DNA of 64,000 bases, taken from positions 229,410 to 293,409 of the IMG/VR virus record IMGVR_UViG_3300007513_000001; one strand, written 5' to 3'. A program made the translations under genes and the position numbers. Under the pieces are notes generated by a model that was not told the origin of the DNA, did not search any database, and saw only the letters and a program-made list of their open reading frames with translations. Below, one piece after another: positions 25,373 to 59,938 of this stretch. Origin of the DNA: a virus. Position 1 is the first letter of the stretch; each line of letters starts with the position of its first letter.

Positions 25373-26992
25373 ATGCAGATTAATAAGACTCTGCTTTTTG
25401 ATGCTGAGGCTAGAAAAGAGATATTAGATGGCGTTGAGACTATAGCAAAAGCAGTAAAGAGTACGATGGGACCAAACGGTCAGACGGTAGTTATAGAAAG
25501 AGAAGGAGCTCCGCCGATCTTAACTAAAGACGGCGTTACGGTTGCTCATGCTGTAAATTTGAGCAGCAATTTTAAAAACCTTGGAGTTCAAATGGTCAAG
25601 CAAGCAGCTGCTCAAACTGCTGAAGAAGCTGGCGATGGCACAACTACTTCGACTGTTTTAACTCACACTCTAACTGCTGAAGGGATGAAATTAATTTCGG
25701 CGGGGTATAAGAGCTCTGAAATTAGAGCTGGTATGAAATGGGCAGTAGAAGAAATTTTGAAAGATCTTGAAAATAGATCTCAACCAGTTCGCGAAGATGA
25801 TGACATAATCAACATCGGGGCTATTTCTGCTAATGGAGATAGAAAGATTGGAGAGCTCTTGCTAGAAGCAATGAAGTCTGTGGGTCCAGAAGGAGTAATT
25901 TCTATTGAAGAAGCGAAAGGGTTTACTACTTCTTTGAAAACAGTAGACGGATTCCAGCTTGACAGGGGATACATTTCTCCATATTTTGTGACTAATCACG
26001 ATAGACTGAGTGTAGAATTTTCTAATCCAAAAATTTTGTTAGCCAATAAGACAATATCTAGTGTAACTGAACTTTTGCCACTTTTAGAACAAGCTCACAA
26101 AAATTCGATTCCATTAGTTATTGTAGCTAATGACGTAGACGGAGAAGCTTTAAAAACTTTGGTGGTTAATCACTCAAAGGGAATAGTGAAAGTTTGTGTT
26201 GTGAGGGCGCCAGAGTTTGGGGATGGCAGAGTAGACAGCATGAGCGATCTTTCTTTATTGTTCGGCACTAAGGTGGTTTTTTCTGGAGAAGAAATACATC
26301 AAAACATAGAAGATTTGGGAACATGCGAAAGAATAGAAGTGTTTAGATCTAAATCTATTTTTGTTGGACCGTCTTGCGAAGATTCTGATTTAGAAGATAG
26401 AGTATCCAATATTCAAAACATGCTAATTTCTCCAGAAACTGAAATAAATCAAAAACTTCTTTTGTCTCGAAGGTTAAGCAGATTGCAGGGCGGAATTGCA
26501 GTTATTAGAGTTGGCGGACATACAGAGCTAGAATTAAAAGAGCGAAAAGATAGAGTTGAAGATGCGCTCCATGCAACTCAAGCTGCGGCCGCTAAAGGGA
26601 TTTTACCGGGTGGCGGAATTGCTTTAGTCAGATCTTCAAGAAATATATTAGATAGGTTTGAAGATATTGCTCCATCGGGCTCTACTGAAGATTTCGGCGC
26701 CGGAGTAAGAGTTGTAATGTCGGCTTGTGAATCTCCGCTCCGTCAAATAGTTTCAAATTCCGGCGGAGCTCCAGATGTAGTATTTAATAGAGCTCTCAAT
26801 CCCGAAGAAGCTGATGAAGGATATGATGCCCGGAAAGGCGAGTTTGTTAATATGTATAATAGGGGTATCATCGATCCCTATAGCGTTGTAAGCTCTGCTT
26901 TGAAGAATGCATGCTCAGCAGCATGTTCAATTATTTCTATCGGATGTGCAATGGTTGAGGAAAAAGATGCAAGTATTGATAAATTAAGTTGA
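25373..26992 (+). CDS. groL: GroEL-type chaperonin (HSP60)
   Basis: A 539-residue group I chaperonin of nearly full bacterial length. VKSTMGPNGQTVVIE and DGVTVAH build the nucleotide site, and EEAGDGTTTSTVL contains the catalytic Asp (GDGTTT). KGILPGGGIALVR marks the second equatorial part. The C-terminus lacks the usual Gly-Gly-Met tail and is diverged from host GroEL. No GroES gene was found in the window, so the phage chaperonin may use the host GroES or a co-chaperonin encoded elsewhere. It would fold phage proteins, perhaps capsid subunits. Confidence 0.95.
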   Translation: MQINKTLLFDAEARKEILDGVETIAKAVKSTMGPNGQTVVIEREGAPPILTKDGVTVAHAVNLSSNFKNLGVQMVKQAAAQTAEEAGDGTTTSTVLTHTLTAEGMKLISAGYKSSEIRAGMKWAVEEILKDLENRSQPVREDDDIINIGAISANGDRKIGELLLEAMKSVGPEGVISIEEAKGFTTSLKTVDGFQLDRGYISPYFVTNHDRLSVEFSNPKILLANKTISSVTELLPLLEQAHKNSIPLVIVANDVDGEALKTLVVNHSKGIVKVCVVRAPEFGDGRVDSMSDLSLLFGTKVVFSGEEIHQNIEDLGTCERIEVFRSKSIFVGPSCEDSDLEDRVSNIQNMLISPETEINQKLLLSRRLSRLQGGIAVIRVGGHTELELKERKDRVEDALHATQAAAAKGILPGGGIALVRSSRNILDRFEDIAPSGSTEDFGAGVRVVMSACESPLRQIVSNSGGAPDVVFNRALNPEEADEGYDARKGEFVNMYNRGIIDPYSVVSSALKNACSAACSIISIGCAMVEEKDASIDKLS

Positions 26993-35545: not shown

Positions 35546-36367
35546 ATGCCAAAAGATCCGTTCGCTATTTTGGGAATAAGCAGAAAAGCTTCAGAAAAAG
35601 AAATTAAAGCTGCTTATAGAAAACTGGCAGTAAAATATCATCCTGATAAAAACCCTGATAATCCAGAAGCAATAAGAAAATTTAAAGAAATTACTGAAGC
35701 TTACGAAAGAGCTCTCAATCCGCCAGCACACCACCCACCTCCGCAGGGCTTTGATTTTAGAGATCCCTTTTCTTCATTTTTTGATGAAGCGTTTTTTGGA
35801 GCAAATCGTTTTGCAGATATACCTCTAGACAATGAACTTACTTGTAAGATAAGTTTTATAGAGGCAGTTCGCGGAGGGAAAATTCATATTAGGTATGATA
35901 GGCTACATTCTACTCCTCGAGGATTTCAAGCTAAAAATCAAGAAGCGATAATTACTATTCCACCCGGAGTTAAAAACGGTCAAATTCTTCGAATGAGAGG
36001 GCTTGGGAATATTTCTAGAGCTCGCAAGGGAGACTTGTATGTGCACATTAGCTGTCCATCAGAAACATCAGAGTTTTCTCGGAGAAATTTAGATATTTTC
36101 TCTACAAAAGAAGTAGATTATCTAGACGCCATTTTGGGTTGTAGACTTAGAGTAAAGACGATTCACGGCTCTCGAGATATTACACTTCCCCGTTTTCACG
36201 ATGTAAATATTCCCATTGTTATAAAAGGCGCAGGTATAAGAGCGGGAGACTCTTCTGGAAGCCATTGTATTCAGCTTAGAATAAAAACATCTTCTAAAAT
36301 TTCCAAAGAAGAAGAGCTTCTTTTATTAAAAATTAGAGAAACAAGAAATGGACCCCATAGCTCTTAA
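35546..36367 (+). CDS. DnaJ-family co-chaperone (CbpA-like)
   Basis: A 273-residue J-domain protein. Residues 1-70 form the J domain with the diagnostic HPD ([12 protein letters not shown]). A Pro/Phe linker follows, then two C-terminal substrate-binding domains ([19 protein letters not shown]). The four CxxCxGxG zinc repeats of DnaJ are absent, so it is the CbpA type. It can stimulate the phage DnaK encoded at 51.6 kb. It overlaps the next gene by 20 bases. Confidence 0.88.
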
Positions 36368-43086: not shown

Positions 43087-43463
43087 GTAAAAAGTCAAAA
43101 GCTCAAATTAAAAAAGATTCTCTAAAAAAAGAGATAGAAGATCTAGAAGAAAAATTAGCTAATTTAGAAAATAAGGTGGATAAAGTTTGGAATTCTCGCC
43201 TTGATTCTCTTCTAGATAAACAAATTAGAAAATTACAATATCTAGAAATGAAACTAGACAAAGGAATTTCAGCGTTAGAATCAACTAAAAGAAAAGTTAG
43301 AGATGCTGGAACTTCTGGTTATTATAGTTGCCATCATGATATTATGGAAGCATGTAACTCAGTATATTCAGCCTGTGCTCACCTTTCAGAGCTCAAGATG
43401 ATAGAAGCTTCAATTAAGGAAATCATTAGAAAAGATGCAAAAAAAGATTCACCTCTTAAGTAA
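43083..43463 (+). CDS. coiled-coil protein, unknown
   Basis: A 126-residue protein with a long heptad-rich region (KKEIEDLEEKLANLENKVDK) and a small C-terminal helix with CHHD. It overlaps both neighbours by several bases. Unknown. Confidence 0.5.
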   Translation: MSKKSKAQIKKDSLKKEIEDLEEKLANLENKVDKVWNSRLDSLLDKQIRKLQYLEMKLDKGISALESTKRKVRDAGTSGYYSCHHDIMEACNSVYSACAHLSELKMIEASIKEIIRKDAKKDSPLK

Positions 43464-44064
43464 AGTACCTCGAAAAATTGTTCTTGCATGTTCTGGAGGT
43501 TGTGATTCTATGGCTGCATTAGACTTTTTACTTTCTGGAAAGAAAGAAGTCATTGTCGCATATTTCAATCACGGCACTCAGCACGGCCGTGAAGCAGAAG
43601 AGTTTGTAAGAGCTTACTGTGAAGAAAGAAGTCTGAAGCTTTTCGTGGGATCTTGTTCAAAACAAAAAAAGCAAACACAATCGCTAGAAGAATATTGGAG
43701 AGAAGAACGGCTAAGTTGGCTTAATCACGTTTCTGAAGTTGAGTGCGCCCCAGTTGTTACATGTCATCATTTAGATGATGCTGTAGAGTGGTGGATTTTT
43801 TCTTCTTTTCACGGAAATGGTAAGGTTATCCCTCCCGTTCGAAAGCCATTCCTTCGGCCGTTTCTCCTTACAAGAAAAGATACTTTAGTTTCTTGGAACA
43901 CTCGCAAAGAGGTTCCCTGGATTGAAGATCCGTCAAATGAAAAAACAGAGTTCATGAGAAATTATATTCGGCATGAGCTAATTCCCAGAGTGCTAAATGT
44001 AAATCCTGGAATTCATAAAGTAGTAGCAAAAAAGATTAAAGATTTGCATGAAAACTCGTTATAA
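43435..44064 (+). CDS. tilS: tRNA(Ile)-lysidine synthetase, short form
   Basis: A 209-residue TilS-like N-type ATP pyrophosphatase. The PP-loop IVLACSGGCDSMAALD is near the N-terminus, YFNHGTQHGREAEEF follows the family's (V)NHxLR region, VTCHHLDDAVE gives the conserved H-H-x-D-D, and VPWIEDPSNEKTEFMRNYIRHELIP-like text (split: WIEDPSN, then NYIRHELIP) is the TilS signature. TilS changes C34 of tRNA-Ile(CAU) to lysidine so that it reads AUA. It is about half the length of the E. coli enzyme and lacks the C-terminal domains. A CAU tRNA with Ile2-like acceptor pairs lies 1.1 kb downstream. Confidence 0.88.
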   Translation: MQKKIHLLSKVPRKIVLACSGGCDSMAALDFLLSGKKEVIVAYFNHGTQHGREAEEFVRAYCEERSLKLFVGSCSKQKKQTQSLEEYWREERLSWLNHVSEVECAPVVTCHHLDDAVEWWIFSSFHGNGKVIPPVRKPFLRPFLLTRKDTLVSWNTRKEVPWIEDPSNEKTEFMRNYIRHELIPRVLNVNPGIHKVVAKKIKDLHENSL

Positions 44065-45199: not shown

Positions 45200-45277
45200 A
45201 GGCCCATAGCTCAATCAGGTCAGAGCATTTGTCTCATAAACAAAGGGTTCCGGGTTCGAGTCCCGGTGGGCCTACCA
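45200..45277 (+). tRNA. tRNA with CAU anticodon, probably Ile2
   Basis: A complete cloverleaf: seven-pair acceptor stem AGGCCCA/TGGGCCT, discriminator A and encoded CCA, anticodon loop CTCATAA in the stem TTTGT/ACAAA, and T arm CCGGG-TTCGAGT-CCCGG. CAU can be elongator Met or lysidine-modified Ile2. The acceptor has C4-G69 and C5-G68, the pairs favoured by TilS, and a phage TilS lies nearby, so Ile2 is the better call. TATAAT lies at 45182-45187. Confidence 0.9.

Positions 45278-46348: not shown

Positions 46349-46358
<10 letters not shown>
45291..46358 (+). CDS. DUF4268 / PD-(D/E)XK-like nuclease-type protein
   Basis: A 355-residue protein starting with GTG between two tRNA genes. The N-terminal half has DFTPWMASNEGISWL, then RIDILAALPNGDSIVIENQ (D-x-D...E-x-Q pattern) and DHRHFHNIQHYAV, matching the nuclease-like core upstream of DUF4268. 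The C-terminal part (WMKWQICFNQQRGRPGEYRV) fits the DUF4268 fold. Such proteins often sit in defence or mobile contexts. The stop lies inside the tRNA-Asn gene, an unusual ten-base overlap. Confidence 0.65.
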
Positions 46359-46441: not shown

Positions 46442-48031
46442 ATGTGCGGATTTTTAACTTATTTTGGAGAAAATGCAGACGTTAAAAAGCTCGCAAAATT
46501 TTCTTCTAAAATTCAATATAGGGGACCAGACAACACTAAAGATGTTTTAGTTAACGAAAAGCTTTTTATGTCTTTTCACAGATTGGCTATTATTGATGTA
46601 ACAGAATTAGGAGATCAACCCCTGCGCCACCCGGACGACGCTGGTTTAGTTTTGGTGTGTAACGGAGAAATCTATAACTACAAAGCACTTATTCAGCAAT
46701 ATAATTTTAAGCCAGGGTCAAATTCAGATTGCGAAGTTATTTTGCATCTTTATAAAAAGTTTGGGATTAAAAAAGCGGTAGAACAACTTGACGGAGTTTT
46801 TGCTTTTTCTTTATACGATTCTAACAAAGATGTTTTATATGCAGCTAGAGATCCCCATGGTGTTCGTCCATGCTTCTTAGCTTTAGAAAAAGATTTTTCA
46901 GCTATCGCTAGTGAAGCTAAAGTTCTAAAAGATATTTCAGATAACATTACTCATTTTCTGCCAGGCACTTGGTGGTCATCAGAATACCCTAACGTTATGA
47001 GCTCCTATTTTAATGTGGAACACAATCCCGTAATTTCAGTGTCGGAAAAAGATGCTTGCGAAAAAATAAAATCGCTTTTAACAGAATCTGTCAGAAAAAG
47101 AATGATGTCAGAAAGAGAAGTGGGGTGTTTGTTATCGGGCGGTTTAGACTCTAGTTTGATTTCTTCTCTAGTTGCTTCAATGTGCGATGACCCTAAAAAA
47201 CTTAAGACTTTTTCTATTGGAATGGAAGGAAGTCCAGATTTAGAATATGCTCAAAAAGTCGCAGCTCATATCGGTTCTGACCATCACAGCATCCAGCTTT
47301 CTCAACAAGATTTTTTAGACGCGATTGACGTAGTGATTTATAATATAGAATCTTACGATACAACCACCGTAAGAGCGAGCGTGGGAAACTATTTAGTTTC
47401 CAAGTACATTAGAGAAAATACTGACGTAAAAGTAGTATTCAACGGAGACGGAGCAGATGAAGTCTGTATGGGGTATGTATATAATGTCAATGCTCCATCT
47501 ACCGAAGATTTCTATTCAGAAAATCATCGCCTGTTAAAAGAAATATACTTGTTTGATGTTTTGAGATCAGATAGAAGTATTAGCTCAAACGGCCTCGAAG
47601 CTAGAACTCCTTTCTTAGATAAAAGTTTTACAAAATACTATATGTCCATACCGCCAAAAATGAAGATGTTTGGTTTAGATAAGCCAGAAAAATATCTCCT
47701 CAGGAAATCTTTCGACGGGACTGGATTGTTGCCAGACGAGGTTTTATGGAGGAGTAAGTGCGCATTTTCCGATGGCGTCAGTAGTATTAAAAATTCCTGG
47801 CATAAGACTCTTAAAAGCTTTATAGATTCTCAAATATCTGATGAGCAATTCGAAAATGAAAAAGATTCTTTTGATTGCTGCAAGCCAGTTTTGAAAGAGA
47901 GCTATTTTTACCGAAAAATATATGAAAACCACTTCGGAGATTCCATGAATTTGATACCTCACTTCTGGATGCCCAAGTGGACTATAGCTAATGACCCTTC
48001 AGCTAGAGAACTAGAAAACTATAAAGAATAA
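46442..48031 (+). CDS. asnB: asparagine synthetase (glutamine-hydrolysing)
   Basis: A 529-residue two-domain enzyme making Asn from Asp, Gln and ATP. The glutaminase domain starts with the catalytic Cys2 (MCGFLTYF) and contains YRGPDN, HRLAIID and NGEIYNY. The synthetase domain has the PP-loop LLSGGLDSSLI near residue 230, then FSIGMEG and NGDGADEVCMGY (usual G-x-G-A-D-E-x-F-x-G-Y). Length is normal. AsnB genes are rare in phages; an alternative is amidation of a phage-specific substrate. tRNA-Asn lies just upstream. Confidence 0.93.
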   Translation: MCGFLTYFGENADVKKLAKFSSKIQYRGPDNTKDVLVNEKLFMSFHRLAIIDVTELGDQPLRHPDDAGLVLVCNGEIYNYKALIQQYNFKPGSNSDCEVILHLYKKFGIKKAVEQLDGVFAFSLYDSNKDVLYAARDPHGVRPCFLALEKDFSAIASEAKVLKDISDNITHFLPGTWWSSEYPNVMSSYFNVEHNPVISVSEKDACEKIKSLLTESVRKRMMSEREVGCLLSGGLDSSLISSLVASMCDDPKKLKTFSIGMEGSPDLEYAQKVAAHIGSDHHSIQLSQQDFLDAIDVVIYNIESYDTTTVRASVGNYLVSKYIRENTDVKVVFNGDGADEVCMGYVYNVNAPSTEDFYSENHRLLKEIYLFDVLRSDRSISSNGLEARTPFLDKSFTKYYMSIPPKMKMFGLDKPEKYLLRKSFDGTGLLPDEVLWRSKCAFSDGVSSIKNSWHKTLKSFIDSQISDEQFENEKDSFDCCKPVLKESYFYRKIYENHFGDSMNLIPHFWMPKWTIANDPSARELENYKE

Positions 48032-48091: not shown

Positions 48092-48391
48092 ATGCTAGAT
48101 AAAATTAAGTCACTTTTGACGAAATACAAGGTACACGTAAGCGTTGTTGGTGGGGCTTTAGTTATTGCTACTGTTTACGGCCAGTGCACTTTAGAGCCAA
48201 ACGTTGAAGCAGTTGAAGAAGCAGTTGAAGAAGCTGCCGATCAAGCAGCTAACTCAACCACGTCTAACGAAGACAAAAAGGTTGAAGCGGCAGCGGCAGA
48301 TGCAGCTATCATGACTGAAGACGCGACTAACGCATCTGAAAATGAAAGTGCTGATACCACTACAGAAGCTACAGAGACTAAAGAAGATTAA
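48092..48391 (+). CDS. small acidic exported/membrane protein
   Basis: A 99-residue protein with a basic start, one hydrophobic segment (VSVVGGALVIATVYGQC) that ends at a cysteine, and an Ala/Glu/Asp/Thr-rich disordered tail with EAVEEAVEEAA repeats. The cysteine context (VYGQC) is a poor lipobox, so a membrane anchor is more likely. AAGGAG precedes the ATG. Confidence 0.55.
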   Translation: MLDKIKSLLTKYKVHVSVVGGALVIATVYGQCTLEPNVEAVEEAVEEAADQAANSTTSNEDKKVEAAAADAAIMTEDATNASENESADTTTEATETKED

Positions 48392-48395
48392 AAAT

Positions 48396-48449
48396 AATTA
48401 TGTTTTTTATTGAACAACAGAGTTTTGAAGTTTAAAATAAAACATAATT
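48396..48449 (+). repeat. AT-rich inverted repeat
   Basis: AATTATGTTTT (48396-48406) and AAAACATAATT (48439-48449) are perfect 11-base complements. It follows the stop of the acidic protein and precedes the large RNA by 42 bases; it could end the upstream transcript or isolate the RNA. Confidence 0.6.
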
Positions 48450-48490
48450 TACTAAACGTTCTTTAACATTGCTAATAAAAGACCTTAGTT

Positions 48491-49127
48491 CTTGGGTCTA
48501 CAAACCTGGATGAGATTACCGATCTCCAGGCGCTAGCGAAAGCTGGTGATAGAGAAAACCTCGCTCAGGAAAAAGCTGTTCTTACGGACCTGCCCGCCTG
48601 ACTAAGAGAGGGGATGCGTAAAGGAGGGTGGTACCTCTGAAAATCATCCAGTGATTCGATGCATGGGTTCCCATACCACTGGGAAAATACTGCTGAGAGT
48701 ATCCGCGGACTTGTAGGTTCATCGTGGAAACGGGATAAGGGGACTAACCAAGAAAAAGTCTTGGGAAGAGAGGTTAATACCTTTTAGAATCTAACTGTCG
48801 GTGATAGAAGTCTCTCTGGCGGAATCGGAAACGAGACCGTCGTCCCGAAAGGGGTCGTATGGACATCCTCCCAAGGTTTGGAAATGCGACGCGCAACTAA
48901 GAGGTGAAGTGTACAGCTCACTCAAAGGCGCGCAGAATATCATAATACGACAGTAAGGCGTGCTGTTCCGTAGTCTTACGGCTAAGAACAGGGAGAAAGC
49001 TCGCGAACGGCGTTACTTGCCGGTGTGCTTACATCTAACCCAAAGGGGACAGGCTCAAAAGGCTTGATGATCACGAGCAGAGAGAATAGAAGTGCTAAAA
49101 CTCTCCCCCTTTTTAACAAGACCCGAG
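48491..49127 (+). ncRNA. large structured RNA, candidate GOLLD/ROOL class
   Basis: A 754-base coding gap holds a dense set of helices. A 9-bp helix (CTTGGGTCT 48491-48499 with AGACCCGAG 49119-49127, one G-U) encloses about 637 nt. Inside are many local hairpins: CCTG/CAGG with GAGAT/ATCTC near 48505-48530, GAAA-capped stems AGC-GAAA-GCT, TCG-GAAA-CGA and CCC-GAAA-GGG, CCAGTG/CACTGG with ATGG/CCAT at about 48650, ATACT/AGTAT at about 48690, CCAAGA/TCTTGG at about 48750, GTGA/TCAC at about 48910, and CTGTT-CCGTA/TACGG-GAACAG at about 48965-48990. It has no long open frame and lies among tRNA genes. This is the setting of GOLLD (about 800 nt) and ROOL (about 580 nt) phage RNAs. The size and features fit that class, but I cannot confirm a family; it may be new. 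Confidence 0.75.
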
Positions 49128-49144: not shown

Positions 49145-49573
49145 ATGACAGTAGAAATCGGTAGCAAAGTAGTAGTTCATTATAAAGGAACATTAAACAA
49201 CGGTGAAGAATTCGACAGCTCATATTCAAGAAATGAGCCGCTAAGTTTTACCGTAGGAAACGGAGAAACAATCGCGGGTTTTGATTCTGCTGTTGTTGGG
49301 ATGTCTATTGGGGAAGTAAAAAATATTACCCTGAGCCCATCCGAAGGGTATGGGGACGTAAATCCAGAAGCGTTTCAAAAGATTTCAAAGAATCAGTTTC
49401 CGTCAGATTTTGAACCATCAGCTGGCACTTTAGTCGAGGGAATCAATACCCAAGGCCAAAAAGTTAGAGCCATCATTGCAGAAGTTTTTGACGAAGATTT
49501 AGTTCTTGATTTTAATCACCCGATGGCTGGAAAAGAGATGAATTTCGAAATTCAGCTAGTCAACTGCGAATAA
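49145..49573 (+). CDS. FKBP-type peptidyl-prolyl isomerase
   Basis: A 142-residue protein starting at the ATG just after the large RNA. It has VVVHYKGTLNNGEEFDSSY, GETIAGFDSAVVGMSIGE and SPSEGYGDVNP, the FKBP/SlyD core with its inserted flap and the end DLVLDFNHPMAGKEMNFEI, as in SlyD. It would speed proline isomerisation and act as a chaperone. SlyD's His-rich tail is absent. Start codons inside the RNA in the same frame are ignored. Confidence 0.9.
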   Translation: MTVEIGSKVVVHYKGTLNNGEEFDSSYSRNEPLSFTVGNGETIAGFDSAVVGMSIGEVKNITLSPSEGYGDVNPEAFQKISKNQFPSDFEPSAGTLVEGINTQGQKVRAIIAEVFDEDLVLDFNHPMAGKEMNFEIQLVNCE

Positions 49574-49580
49574 ACAAACT

Positions 49581-49656
49581 GCGGGAGTAGCTCAATTGGT
49601 AGAGCTTCAGCCTTCCAAGCTGATTGTTGAGGGTTCGATTCCCTTCTCCCGCTCCA
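49581..49656 (+). tRNA. tRNA-Gly (UCC)
   Basis: Acceptor GCGGGAG/CTCCCGC, discriminator T, encoded CCA, anticodon TCC in loop CTTCCAA, and T arm GAGGG-TTCGATT-CCCTT. It reads GGA and GGG; GGA is the frequent glycine codon in these genes. It lies seven bases after the FKBP gene. Confidence 0.95.
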
Positions 49657-50077: not shown

Positions 50078-50154
50078 GCGCCCGTAGCTCAGCTGGATAG
50101 AGCAACGGCCTTCTAAGCCGTGGGCCGCAGGTTCGAATCCTGCCGGGCGTGCCA
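50078..50154 (+). tRNA. tRNA-Arg (UCU)
   Basis: Acceptor GCGCCCG/CGGGCGT with a G1-U72 wobble, discriminator G, encoded CCA, anticodon TCT in loop CTTCTAA, and T arm GCAGG-TTCGAAT-CCTGC. It decodes AGA/AGG; AGA is plainly the main arginine codon of this AT-rich genome. Confidence 0.95.
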
Positions 50155-51623: not shown

Positions 51624-53498
51624 ATGGGTAAAGTTATTGGAATTGATTTGGGCACGACAAATTCGTGCGTGGCTGTAGTCGAGGGTACAAACCCTATAGT
51701 TATAGCTAATGAAGAAGGAAGCAGAACAACTCCTTCCGTTGTGAGCTATAATGATACCGGAAGACTAGTAGGAATAGCAGCTCGTAGACAAGCTATCGTT
51801 AACCCCGAATCTACCGTGTATTCTGTGAAGCGTTTTATGGGAATGAGATTTGACGAATCTAAAACAGAGGTCGAAAAAGTTCCTTACGAAATAGTTTCTG
51901 GAGATAGCGGAGAGTGCCGAATAAAAATTAAAGATAGCAAACTGTCTCCTTCTGAAATATCAGCGCAGATTTTAACTAAGCTAAAGAGGAGTGCTGAAAG
52001 ATATTTAGGCACGACTGTAGACGAAGTCGTTATTACAGTACCAGCTTATTTTAATGACTCACAGCGTCAAGCAACTAAAGATGCTGGAAAAATTGCTGGG
52101 TTAGAAGTTAAAAGGATCATTAACGAACCGACAGCTGCAGCTTTAGCTTACGGCATGGATAAAGCTGGCGAGCAAAAGGTTGCTGTTTTTGACTTGGGCG
52201 GTGGTACATTTGATATCTCAATTTTAGAAATATCAGATGGAGTTGTCGAAGTTTTGAGCACGAATGGAGATACTCACCTTGGGGGCGACGACGTAGATCA
52301 ACTTTTGATTGATTGGCTATTTAAAACTTTTGAGGCGGACACCGGAATAGATCTTTCTAAAGATAGCATGGTTATTCAAAGGCTTAGAGAAGCAGCTGAA
52401 AAAGCTAAAATAGAGCTCTCTACAGCGCAGCAAACTGAAATCAATCTTCCCTTCTTGACAGCTGACGCGACCGGTCCGAAACATCTAACTGCGAATTTGA
52501 CAAGATCAAAGTTTGAACAAATGATAGATTCTTTTGTTCAAAATACACTGGTTCCGGTTAAAAATGCGCTCGAAGATGCAAATATTGCCAAAGAAGAAAT
52601 TGATGAAGTGATTCTTGTTGGAGGGTCTACTAGAATTCCAGCTGTTAGAGATAGAGTTGAGAAGTTTTTCGGCAAAACTGCAAATAGTTCGGTTAATCCA
52701 GACGAAGTTGTTGCTCTTGGAGCAGCAGTGCAGGGAGGCGTATTTTCAGGAGACGTTAATGACGTGCTTCTTCTTGACGTTACCCCCTTATCTTTGGGCA
52801 TTGAAACCTTGGGAGGTGTAACAACATTTTTAATTAATCGAAACACCACGATTCCAACTTCTAAATCAGAAACCTTCAGCACGGCAACAGATAATCAGCC
52901 AGCGGTTGATATACACGTCTTGCAGGGAGAGAGAAAGTTTTCTAAAGACAACAGAACTCTTGGAAATTTTCAATTAGCTGGCATCCCTCCAGCTCCTCGA
53001 GGTTTACCACAAATCGAGGTAACTTTTGATATCGACGCGAATGGTATTTTGTCAGTTTCTGCAAAAGACAAAGCTACTGGAAAAGAGCAGAGTGTAAGAA
53101 TCGAAGGCCAATCTGGGCTTTCAGATAGTGATATATCTGATATGATTAAAAATGCCGAGGCTGCTGCAGAAGAAGACGAAAAGAAGTTTAAGGTTATAGA
53201 AGAAAGAAATAAGTTAGACACTCTTGTATACCAAGCTCAAAAAGCAATGAAAGAAAATCAAGACAACATGACGGAAGATTCTAAATTTTCTCTTGGGGAA
53301 TTTATTATCGCTGCCGAAAGTGCTTTAGACAGCGATAGTTTAGATGAGCTTAACCTAGCGTTTAATAATTTGCAGTCTAAGCTTCATGAAATAAGTTCAG
53401 AACTTTACCAATCGTCAACTACCGCTGAAGATTCTAGCGACACGAGCGATGATTCAGGTGATATTATAGACGCTGATTTTGAAGATGTTGACTCTTGA
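51624..53498 (+). CDS. dnaK: DnaK (HSP70) chaperone
   Basis: A 624-residue full-length HSP70. All three signatures occur: [31 protein letters not shown] and [17 protein letters not shown]. The substrate domain ([13 protein letters not shown]) and the Asp-rich end ([11 protein letters not shown]) also match. AAGGAG precedes the ATG. With the CbpA-like DnaJ and FKBP it could form a phage folding system. No GrpE gene was found here. Confidence 0.96.
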
Positions 53499-57166: not shown

Positions 57167-59938
57167 ATGTTATCAATTAATGGAATACCGATCAAGATCA
57201 AAGTAGCTCGAGACGACAAATCTCGAGCTCATGGTCTTATGGGGGTAAAGAGTATGCCGGAAAACGAGGGTATGCTTTTCGTTTTTTCAGAGTCGAAACC
57301 TAGATCTTTTTGGATGAAAGATACTCTGTTTCCGCTTTCTATTGCTTACATTGACGAAGACCATAAGATTATCAACATTGAAGACATGAAGCCACACGAT
57401 ACTTCTAGTGTTGTCTCTGCTTCACCCGCGATATGCGCATTAGAAATGAACCGAGGGTGGTTTAGAAACAACGGCATCCGACCGGGAGACGCTGTTGACG
57501 GAATCAAAAGGGTTTATAGTGAATCTATTTTAAGGAAATCTATTAGACTATTGTTGAGAGAATCATCTACACCCACACGAACTTCATTTGATATTCCTAT
57601 ACCTGCTGATTTAAAAGATATTCATTCACGAATTAAGTACGCGGGTCGAGAATTATTTTTAGTTGGTGGTGCTGTTCGAGATGCGCTTATGGGTAAAACC
57701 CCTAAAGATTATGACGTAGCAACAAATGCGAGTCCTGAAGCCGTTATAAAAATATTGCAAAAAGATCCAAGTCTTAGGTTAGATTTAACTGGTAAACAGT
57801 TTGGAGTAGTGAGAGTAAAAACTAGTGACGGTGGAGAATACGAAATAGCTACTTTTAGAGAAGACATAGGAAAAGGTAAGTCTACAAAGGTAAAATTTTC
57901 TACGATTGAAAACGATGTTAAAAGAAGAGATTTAACAATTAATGCGCTGTTCTACGATATGGATTCTAAAGAAATCGTAGATTATGTCGGCGGAATTGAA
58001 GACATTGAAAACGGAATAATCCGAGCAGTAGGAAACCCAACTCAAAGATTTGACGAAGATAGAATTAGAATTTTGAGAGCCGTCAGATTTGCTGGGAGGA
58101 TGGGATCAAATTTAGACCCGCAAACTAAGCAAGCTATTTTAGACGACAACAAACTAATAGATACGGAAACTGGTCAGCAGATACCAGCTGATAGAATCAC
58201 TGAAGAGTTTGTAAAAGGGATAAAGTCAGCGCAAGATCCCGTTGGGTTTTTAGCTACTATAAATGACCTCGGTCTTTTTGATCAAATTTTGCCAGGCTTA
58301 GAGCTGAATTTTAGTACTTCTGGAACAACTGACCACATAGCTCAATTGGCTGCGTTGTTAAATAATAATTCTACAGATTCTATATCTTCGACTTTAAAAA
58401 GAATGAGATATTCTAACGATGAACGGAATATCATTAATTTTTTAATTAGTTTTGGAAATATTAATCGAGACACTGCTCCAGCGCTTAAAAAAGATTTCAA
58501 GCGCTACAAGATACCAGAAAGTCATTTAATAGAATATGCAGCGGCTTCAGACAGCCTTTCACAAAATAAACTGGATTCGTTTCTGCAGTTTGCTTCTGAG
58601 CCACCAGCTGGAAACTCTAAAGAATTAATGGCTAAAGGAATCAAAGGGCGAGATCTTGGTGTTGCTCTTGCCGCAGCAGAGGGAGATGCTTTTGCGAAGT
58701 TGATTGGCGAGTCAGTAATCGTTAGGCTTTTGACGGAAGCCGCCAAAGGACCACAAGATCTGCCTGACGGAATATTTGTACAGATCAAGCCCGACGATTG
58801 GGGCGTTCGAGTCGCTTATGTAAACAAGCTCAATAATGTGCTCTCGATGGAAGCTGACATTCGGGGCGTAGTTATGGTAGAAAGGCTTTCAGAAGATGAT
58901 ACGGATTTAGGGCCGTGCGACGACGCATGGATGATCGGATCTTCAGAGGCAGCCCCTGGTTGGGGCCCAATGCTTTACGATGTTGCTATGGAATATGCTA
59001 CTATGAAAGGCGGCGGGCTTATGGCAGATCGAGGTTCAGTCTCTCCAAAGGCTCGTAATGTGTGGGACTATTACATGAATAATCGCGGTGACGTTACAGG
59101 AATCCAGATGGATGACCGCAAAAACACTCTCACACCAGAGGAAGAAGATAATTGTAGCCAAAAGGTTGCCGGTCTTGACAATCGGTCACAACAGGATAAG
59201 TCGAAGCTATCCCCAGCCGGCACTTACAAGACAGATTGGGTTGACTCTCCTTTAAGCAAACGCTGGACAAAACCACCCACCACCATCGAGGCTTTAAGAG
59301 CTGCAGGCAAACTCGTCTGGCATGAAGCGGGCGATCATCTTCCACTCAGAGATTTGGATGCAGAAGGTCCAATCTTGCACTTGGAAAATTTCGTGAAAGA
59401 AATATTAAAAGAAGAAACTTTTAGAATTCTAATACCGAGCCCTCCTTCTGAAAAAGAAAGGTTAAAAGAGCTTCCATACGTAGTTCAAAAAAATCAAAAT
59501 CCGAGCTTTAGCCCAGAGATTTTGAAGACGTTAGATAAGAGAGTTTCAAAGTTATTTAATTTTTTAATAGTGAGCGCTGGATATCCGGACGTTTTTGAAA
59601 GAATAAAAGAAACAAAAAACAGCATAAAACCAATTATCAAGTTTCACAAAAATTATTTTGATTGTCTCCGACCAGATGAATTAGCGGATTCTTATGGGCT
59701 AGATTTTCCTGTTAGCTATTTGGACAGTGCGCAGAGTCCGTCTTATCCTTCGGGTCATACAACCCAAGCGTTTTACTTAGCACATGTTTTGGCAAGTGAA
59801 TATCCAGAAATTTCAGAAGATTTTTATAATTTAGCTCAAATGGTGGCCGACTCTAGAATAGAACATGGGGTGCATTTACCTTCAGACAATGAAGCGGGAA
59901 AACTTCTTGCAAAAACTATATACGGGTGGGAAGTTTAA
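57167..59938 (+). CDS. polyprotein: DUF192, CCA-type transferase, acetyltransferase-like, PAP2 phosphatase
   Basis: A 923-residue chain of four modules. Residues 1-115 are DUF192 (SRAHGLMGVKSMPENEGMLF, FWMKDTLFPLSIAYID). Leader-like motif at 122 (LRKSIRLLLRES). Residues 140-400 are a class II CCA-adding/poly(A)-polymerase head (FLVGGAVRDALMG, DYDVATNA, RRDLTINAL). Motif at 517 (VIVRLLTEA). Residues 525-735 look like a GNAT-type phage domain (MLYDVAMEYATMKGGGL). Motif at 739 (LENFVKEILKEE). Residues 750-923 are a class A acid phosphatase: KNYFDCLRP, PSYPSGH and SRIEHGVHLPSD fit K-x6-RP, PSGH and SR-x5-H-x3-D exactly. I infer cutting at L-x-E sites by the head protease into separate enzymes. 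No such fusion is known to me. Confidence 0.8.
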   Translation: MLSINGIPIKIKVARDDKSRAHGLMGVKSMPENEGMLFVFSESKPRSFWMKDTLFPLSIAYIDEDHKIINIEDMKPHDTSSVVSASPAICALEMNRGWFRNNGIRPGDAVDGIKRVYSESILRKSIRLLLRESSTPTRTSFDIPIPADLKDIHSRIKYAGRELFLVGGAVRDALMGKTPKDYDVATNASPEAVIKILQKDPSLRLDLTGKQFGVVRVKTSDGGEYEIATFREDIGKGKSTKVKFSTIENDVKRRDLTINALFYDMDSKEIVDYVGGIEDIENGIIRAVGNPTQRFDEDRIRILRAVRFAGRMGSNLDPQTKQAILDDNKLIDTETGQQIPADRITEEFVKGIKSAQDPVGFLATINDLGLFDQILPGLELNFSTSGTTDHIAQLAALLNNNSTDSISSTLKRMRYSNDERNIINFLISFGNINRDTAPALKKDFKRYKIPESHLIEYAAASDSLSQNKLDSFLQFASEPPAGNSKELMAKGIKGRDLGVALAAAEGDAFAKLIGESVIVRLLTEAAKGPQDLPDGIFVQIKPDDWGVRVAYVNKLNNVLSMEADIRGVVMVERLSEDDTDLGPCDDAWMIGSSEAAPGWGPMLYDVAMEYATMKGGGLMADRGSVSPKARNVWDYYMNNRGDVTGIQMDDRKNTLTPEEEDNCSQKVAGLDNRSQQDKSKLSPAGTYKTDWVDSPLSKRWTKPPTTIEALRAAGKLVWHEAGDHLPLRDLDAEGPILHLENFVKEILKEETFRILIPSPPSEKERLKELPYVVQKNQNPSFSPEILKTLDKRVSKLFNFLIVSAGYPDVFERIKETKNSIKPIIKFHKNYFDCLRPDELADSYGLDFPVSYLDSAQSPSYPSGHTTQAFYLAHVLASEYPEISEDFYNLAQMVADSRIEHGVHLPSDNEAGKLLAKTIYGWEV

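Follow-up and report, generated by a model that had tools for sequence, protein, structure and literature searches.

To our knowledge, few RNAs of the size and complexity described here are known. ROOL and GOLLD, which form RNA-only nanocages, are the two best-known classes linked to phages. ROOL RNA is 659 nt long, and both RNAs occur in phages in a tRNA context and contain pseudoknots and covarying kissing loops (PMC12286853). Kissing loops assemble ROOL into an 8-mer cage and GOLLD into a 14-mer cage; covariation had already pointed to some of these loops, which were interpreted as tertiary contacts, and cryo-EM showed them to be intermolecular (PMC12286853). Another large RNA, OLE, operates in a ribonucleoprotein (RNP) that includes bS21 (PMC12054373). 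Inspection of a virus genome had suggested that a coding gap close to phage tRNAs contained a giant structured RNA, either a member of the GOLLD or ROOL families or a new class. The sequence comparisons presented here support a new RNA family in very large phages that was previously uncatalogued.

Results

The window, a 64,000-nt stretch of a 293,409-base virus record, contained a gap between an ORF ending at position 48391 and an FKBP ORF starting at 49145. No plausible gene was found in between when the ORFs of the window were read, in agreement with the coding gap of more than 700 bases in the original prediction. The gap harboured a large, structured RNA of approximately 643 nt (48472-49114, forward strand, as are all RNA elements below), defined by its homologs and by a covarying structure of 166 pairs. 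Judging from its sequence signals, the transcript probably extends from about 48455 to 49114. The minimum free energy of the RNA interval was -224.6 kcal/mol, as compared to -193.9 ± 6.4 kcal/mol in dinucleotide shuffles (z = -4.8), confirming that this is a strongly folding RNA with many local stems. Its GC content was 49%, against 38-39% in the flanks and 39% in the window.

About 25 phage or metagenome-assembled genome (MAG) records besides the window carried a homologous RNA, 18 of them at full length. One relative (L002) was reached via its asparagine synthase neighbour and further members via DNA patterns from conserved stretches; membership was confirmed by nhmmer profiles (E values between 1e-35 and 1e-221). 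Pairwise identity among the homologs was 58-95%, and all three forward frames were interrupted by stops in every one of them. Total length varied between 614 and 675 nt through short indels only, the largest being located between P12 and PK2. Covariance model searches detected one copy of the RNA per record, and a model built on positions 48955-49077 (R1) found one copy in each RNA-bearing record holding that part. The L002 contig ended after the first 395 bases of the RNA, which were 86% identical to the window; this copy and that of L111 sit at genuine contig ends, for which assembly breaks are the simplest explanation. Genome breakage or circularisation at the RNA was considered and dropped after a whole-record search indicated that several apparent contig ends were the ends of the stored stretch.

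The carriers came from many environments, on contigs reaching 317 kb. Three belonged to MAGs and bore the labels Halobacteriovorax, Methylococcaceae and Flavobacteriales; these contigs may come from phages whose DNA was binned with that of a host. The terminase of the window phage was a T4-superfamily large terminase with 41% identity to its counterpart in Flavobacterium phage immuto. The terminases of the carriers fell into two or more lineages whose similarity to each other is almost undetectable (G000/G001/G016/G025/G029 and G030/G031), indicating either an ancient presence of the RNA in these phages or its transfer among them. BLASTN searches with four different members gave no match in 50,697 cultured-phage records (INPHARED). 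No copy was found by BLAST or covariance model in other phages encoding the asparagine synthase (L003-L012), whose contigs are possibly incomplete, nor in a related phage record (G003) to which the same reservation applies.

A conserved secondary structure was derived from an alignment of 19 sequences (A3), in which the 5' and 3' parts were aligned in 19/19. RNAalifold predicted 153 pairs, 89 of them with double-sided changes. Covarying helices lying outside the nested fold were sought separately and four were added (K1, P14, PK2 and PK3); the structure that resulted had 31 helices with 166 pairs. In this structure 97.5% of cells were paired, a figure biased upward since the structure was partly derived from the same sequences. 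Sliding the partners by 1-3 columns reduced pairing to 38-45%, and double-sided change was found at 102 pairs (448 cells), compared with 59 pairs (126 cells) in shuffles. This signal is too large for the derivation bias to explain. Comparative folding with related phages, proposed at the outset as a check, thus revealed compensatory change at 102 pairs across 19 copies, and the comparative evidence puts the structured RNA beyond chance.

The 5' end of the fold is made of a conserved hairpin, P1 (48481-48498, GACCY-nnGUUCUY-GGGUC, 96.8% of cells paired in the 19 sequences), followed by hairpin P2 (48505-48530), in which 8/8 pairs covaried. The 9-bp helix 48491-48499/49119-49127, originally predicted to close the whole domain, was not conserved in the homologs: the bases of its 5' strand form the 3' arm of P1, and those of its 3' strand lie outside the RNA, past the U-tract of the terminal hairpin. 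Pseudoknot P14 is formed by UAGGUUC in the P12 loop (48714-48720) and positions 48787-48793; it was paired in 100% of cells, with double-sided change at 4/7 pairs. The long-range pseudoknot PK2 joins 48759-48766 (UCUUGGGA) to 48869-48876 (UCCCAAGG), with 96.7% of cells paired; the corresponding strands in L108, UCAUGGUA and UACCAUGA, differ by three compensatory pairs. A central domain (48794-48954) containing P17-P24 is closed by P15 and P16, both 100% paired, with 7 covarying pairs. Further downstream are the P25/P26 hairpin (48963-48991), with a stem CUGUUC/GAACAG that is invariant in the 19-sequence alignment, and a 3' multibranch domain (49000-49077) closed by P27 (97.7% paired, three pairs with double-sided change). 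The third pseudoknot, PK3, pairs GUGCUU (49025-49030) with AAGUGC in the terminal hairpin loop (49090-49095); 91.2% of cells were paired and four pairs displayed double-sided change.

Three GAAA tetraloops had been noticed in the window, and at least three GAAA-capped hairpins were indeed present (at about 48538, 48828 and 48847), but only the loop at 48847 (CCCGAAAGGGG) was invariant; the first was replaced by UUCG, UUUU or other sequences in relatives. The hairpin carrying the invariant loop, P19 (CCCGAAAGGG, 48844-48853), was identical in 19/19 sequences. Numerous other invariant stretches, such as AAGAACAGGGAGNAA and GAAGUGUACAGCU, were apparently unpaired.

The kissing loop K1 connects two adjacent hairpins, P8 and P11, and completely fills both 6-nt loops: GUGGUA (48628-48633) pairs with UACCAC (48674-48679). 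This interaction was paired in 96.5% of cells with double-sided change at three pairs, as in the variants GUGACA/UGUCAC (L090) and GUGGAA/UUCCGC (L026). In addition, the palindrome UGUACA was found in an apparent hairpin loop (48910-48915) and its context AGUGUACAGCU was retained in 19/19 sequences. This loop is a possible self-kissing (dimer) contact, bearing in mind that, with many loops present, one of them may well contain a 6-nt palindrome by chance. Because ROOL and GOLLD cages assemble via kissing loops, K1 and UGUACA are natural candidates for cage-type intermolecular contacts, by an analogy that is no proof, given that covariation does not distinguish kissing within one molecule from kissing between molecules.

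From its sequence, the RNA reads as a free-standing unit made of a -10-like element, a boxA, the RNA body and a terminal hairpin with a U-tract. The -10-like element of the presumed promoter (CATAAT, 48443-48448) would place the transcription start near 48455. This element is weak in the window; most homologs had a TATAAT-like element with 4-6 of 6 matches immediately preceding boxA, which suggests that boxA lies close to where the RNA begins. At this presumed 5' end, the element GTTCTTTAACA (48458-48468) perfectly matched GYTCTTTAANA, the gamma-proteobacterial boxA consensus (PMC5725501). The boxA core motif was perfect (9/9) in 16/20 homologs, as opposed to 0.75% of shuffled upstream regions, the remaining forms being TTCTTTTACA or weaker. 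In nearly all full 5' ends, TTCTTTAACA, TTCTTTGAAA or a similar sequence was present, in most cases some 25-32 bases ahead of the P1 loop. In a divergent clade (L153, L154, L155 and L165), boxA lay about 60 bases upstream and was separated from P1 by a small additional hairpin. At the 3' end, the hairpin GAGAG/CUCUC followed by a U-tract (49080-49114), whose loop forms PK3, is a likely intrinsic terminator; in the homologs, this place showed a stem and U-run or was closely followed by a second terminator hairpin.

The same antitermination element precedes long untranslated RNAs in rRNA leaders and upstream of CRISPR arrays; its position ahead of a structural RNA of phages is an arrangement for which we found no earlier report in the literature searched. 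By analogy with rRNA-type antitermination, we infer the same role for boxA here, together with the use of Nus factors. The presence of boxA at the 5' end of nearly all members could also indicate a Nus-factor sponge, an abundant RNA that titrates NusB/NusE and lowers host rRNA synthesis. There is a precedent in E. coli, where highly transcribed lambda NutL RNA with its boxA titrates Nus factors and decreases rRNA expression (PMC4807359). We consider this explanation improbable, since a sponge would not need 640 conserved nucleotides with pseudoknots and the boxA sequence drifted more than the RNA core.

As predicted, the RNA is located in a tRNA-rich context, with tRNAs on both sides (Met at 45200, Asn at 46349, Gly at 49581 and Arg at 50078). 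The nearest tRNA was closer than expected by chance in most tRNA-bearing records (Fisher combined p = 2.6e-5 over 11 records, an approximate value as the records are related), and tRNAs were absent from 3/14 records tested. A tmRNA lay within a few kilobases of the RNA in some carriers (L103, L151 and L166). Near the tRNAs, the window also encodes a TilS-like PP-loop ATPase and an asparagine synthase (43435-44064 and 46442-48031), the latter found again in other large phage contigs. In a 923-amino-acid ORF (57167-59938), DUF192 is fused to a CCA-adding/poly(A) polymerase head domain and a PAP2 phosphatase domain. The window phage has its own protein-folding set, made of GroEL-like (PF00118), DnaJ, FKBP isomerase and full-length DnaK proteins (25373-26992, 35546-36367, 49145-49573 and 51624-53498).

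The downstream neighbour of the RNA, which is not part of it, is the gene for the FKBP-type peptidyl-prolyl isomerase (forward strand; PF00254, E = 5.7e-23). It starts 31 nt past the U-tract and was also directly downstream in a few homologs (L027, L068 and L097), as expected if the RNA were a cis-acting leader or riboswitch of this gene. In the other homologs the downstream genes are different, and a terminator stands in between. Neighbouring genes varied between phages and were conserved in close relatives only; no conserved neighbouring protein gene was found among the homologs. This variation makes a trans-acting RNA likelier than a leader and argues against a cis regulator of one gene; the RNA therefore probably acts in trans. 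A group II or other mobile intron was likewise rejected: the RNA is intergenic with its own terminator, there is neither an interrupted gene nor an intron ORF, no intron match was found in the window and the group II D1D4 model (RF01998) gave no match over its cut-off in 34 records. An FKBP leader or a mobile intron thus appears extremely improbable. A gene for phage bS21 was present in just 2 of the RNA-bearing records tested, and a general link between the RNA and phage-encoded bS21 was rejected.

Searches against Rfam 15 gave no credible family match to the window RNA even at E ≤ 10, and thus no intron or other known RNA. No credible match was found with the RNA of five homologs at E ≤ 1, where the sole overlapping row was U6atac in L070 (E 0.59, opposite strand, far below cut-off). 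The ROOL model (RF03087, cut-off 99.1 bits) had no match at E ≤ 1 in 34 records. Of the sequences taken as positive controls, rumen MAGs gave no ROOL match, and Ligilactobacillus salivarius pMP118 scored 130.4 bits in the same kind of scan. The GOLLD model is RF02032, RF01998 having been cited for it in error (it is group-II-D1D4-1). Its best score in the 34 records was 9.8 bits (cut-off 150 bits), at places or records unrelated to the RNA. The homologs lacked both a ROOL-type variable linker within the conserved fold and the GOLLD-type pattern of a conserved 3' part with a divergent 5' part, covarying helices being found throughout.

The new RNA resembles these RNAs in size class, in its occurrence in phages near tRNAs and in having pseudoknots and kissing loops (PMC12286853), which could suggest a GOLLD or ROOL that drifted beyond the Rfam models. 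The absence of covariance model matches at permissive thresholds, against 130 bits for pMP118 ROOL, and the homolog lengths of 614-675 nt, with no long variable linker, already disfavour this possibility, which we regard as very improbable. Of the two options first proposed, membership of GOLLD or ROOL was thus contradicted, and a new class was upheld by about 25 covarying homologous records. No earlier description of the RNA was found in the literature searched, mostly open-access journal papers. The RNA exceeds 500 nt, is non-coding and has a covarying structure with pseudoknots and kissing loops, in phages and near tRNAs; these properties place it among the large ornate phage RNAs, a class defined by function and not by homology.

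Discussion

That this RNA works like GOLLD and ROOL is, by analogy, our leading idea. We tentatively propose, with slightly less than even confidence, that it is a large ornate phage RNA of a new family, acting in trans, folding co-transcriptionally with Nus factors and self-associating. The RNA would be transcribed alone from a sigma70-type promoter, and host Nus factors would load on boxA at its nascent 5' end, so that RNA polymerase could complete this long untranslated RNA without being terminated by Rho. It would fold while emerging, as ribosomal RNA does, until transcription stops at the hairpin terminator, the loop of which would be drawn back into the fold via PK3. The finished RNA would be a compact, stable and probably abundant particle held by pseudoknots and the 6-bp kissing loop, most likely forming a homo-oligomer via kissing loops and the invariant UGUACA loop. 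Such a particle would work like the ROOL and GOLLD nanocages without homology to them and have a role in late infection, perhaps as a binding partner or shelter for tRNAs, ribosomes or other components of translation. The sequences show the family, its structure, boxA, the terminal hairpin, the single copy and the closeness to tRNAs; we infer expression, abundance, Nus use, oligomerisation and cargo.

The main rival is a monomeric RNP scaffold or regulator, binding phage or host proteins as OLE does and forming no RNA-only cage. The pseudoknots and the kissing loop can all be intramolecular, invariant stretches such as AAGAACAGGGAGNAA and GAAGUGUACAGCU could be protein sites, and OLE with its bS21-containing RNP sets a precedent (PMC12054373). 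We find this rather unlikely, as no neighbouring protein gene was conserved and bS21 genes were so rare among the carriers tested. The self-associating particle is the reading that we retain. Its broadest form, a third and independently evolved phage family of self-assembling RNA particles, made by the host machinery for transcribing rRNA (boxA and Nus factors) and acting in the phage takeover of translation, is possible but somewhat doubtful.

If an unrelated third class does exist in very large phages, this would suggest that giant structured RNAs are a recurrent phage solution and no oddity. The boxA leader provides a concrete handle, predicting the mode of transcription and folding of such RNAs, and the alignment yields a ready covariance model and targets for probing.

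How does this RNA compare with those already described? OLE (RF01071) is likewise an ornate RNA of about 600 nt, whereas the new RNA has no Rfam match. The large abundant RNA of Vibrio phage ICP1 is also a phage non-coding RNA (about 800 nt) in an ORF-less gap; in contrast to the new RNA, no boxA was seen and ICP1 has no tRNAs. It was rejected as a relative, with no detectable homology by profile or covariance model. Its gap (L171:4098-5108) is unrelated to the new RNA and to known large RNA families, so that the ICP1 RNA appears to be one more large phage RNA without a class. The likeness to GOLLD and ROOL anticipated in the original prediction, in size, complexity, tRNA neighbourhood and phage context, is real. 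GOLLD is also a giant phage RNA near tRNAs with kissing loops, for which a late or lytic context is expected; it often exceeds 800 nt and its 3' half is conserved more than its 5' half, whereas both halves of the new RNA are conserved and do not match its model. ROOL shares a length in the range of about 520-660 nt, a non-coding, phage-linked nature, frequent proximity to tRNAs, pseudoknots and covarying kissing loops; the new RNA differs from it by the lack of a model match and of a long variable linker. ROOL in pMP118 has no boxA just upstream, suggesting that its biogenesis is different. The new RNA is mostly carried by large metagenomic phages (up to 317 kb), while ROOL is found in diverse phages and prophages and on a Ligilactobacillus plasmid.
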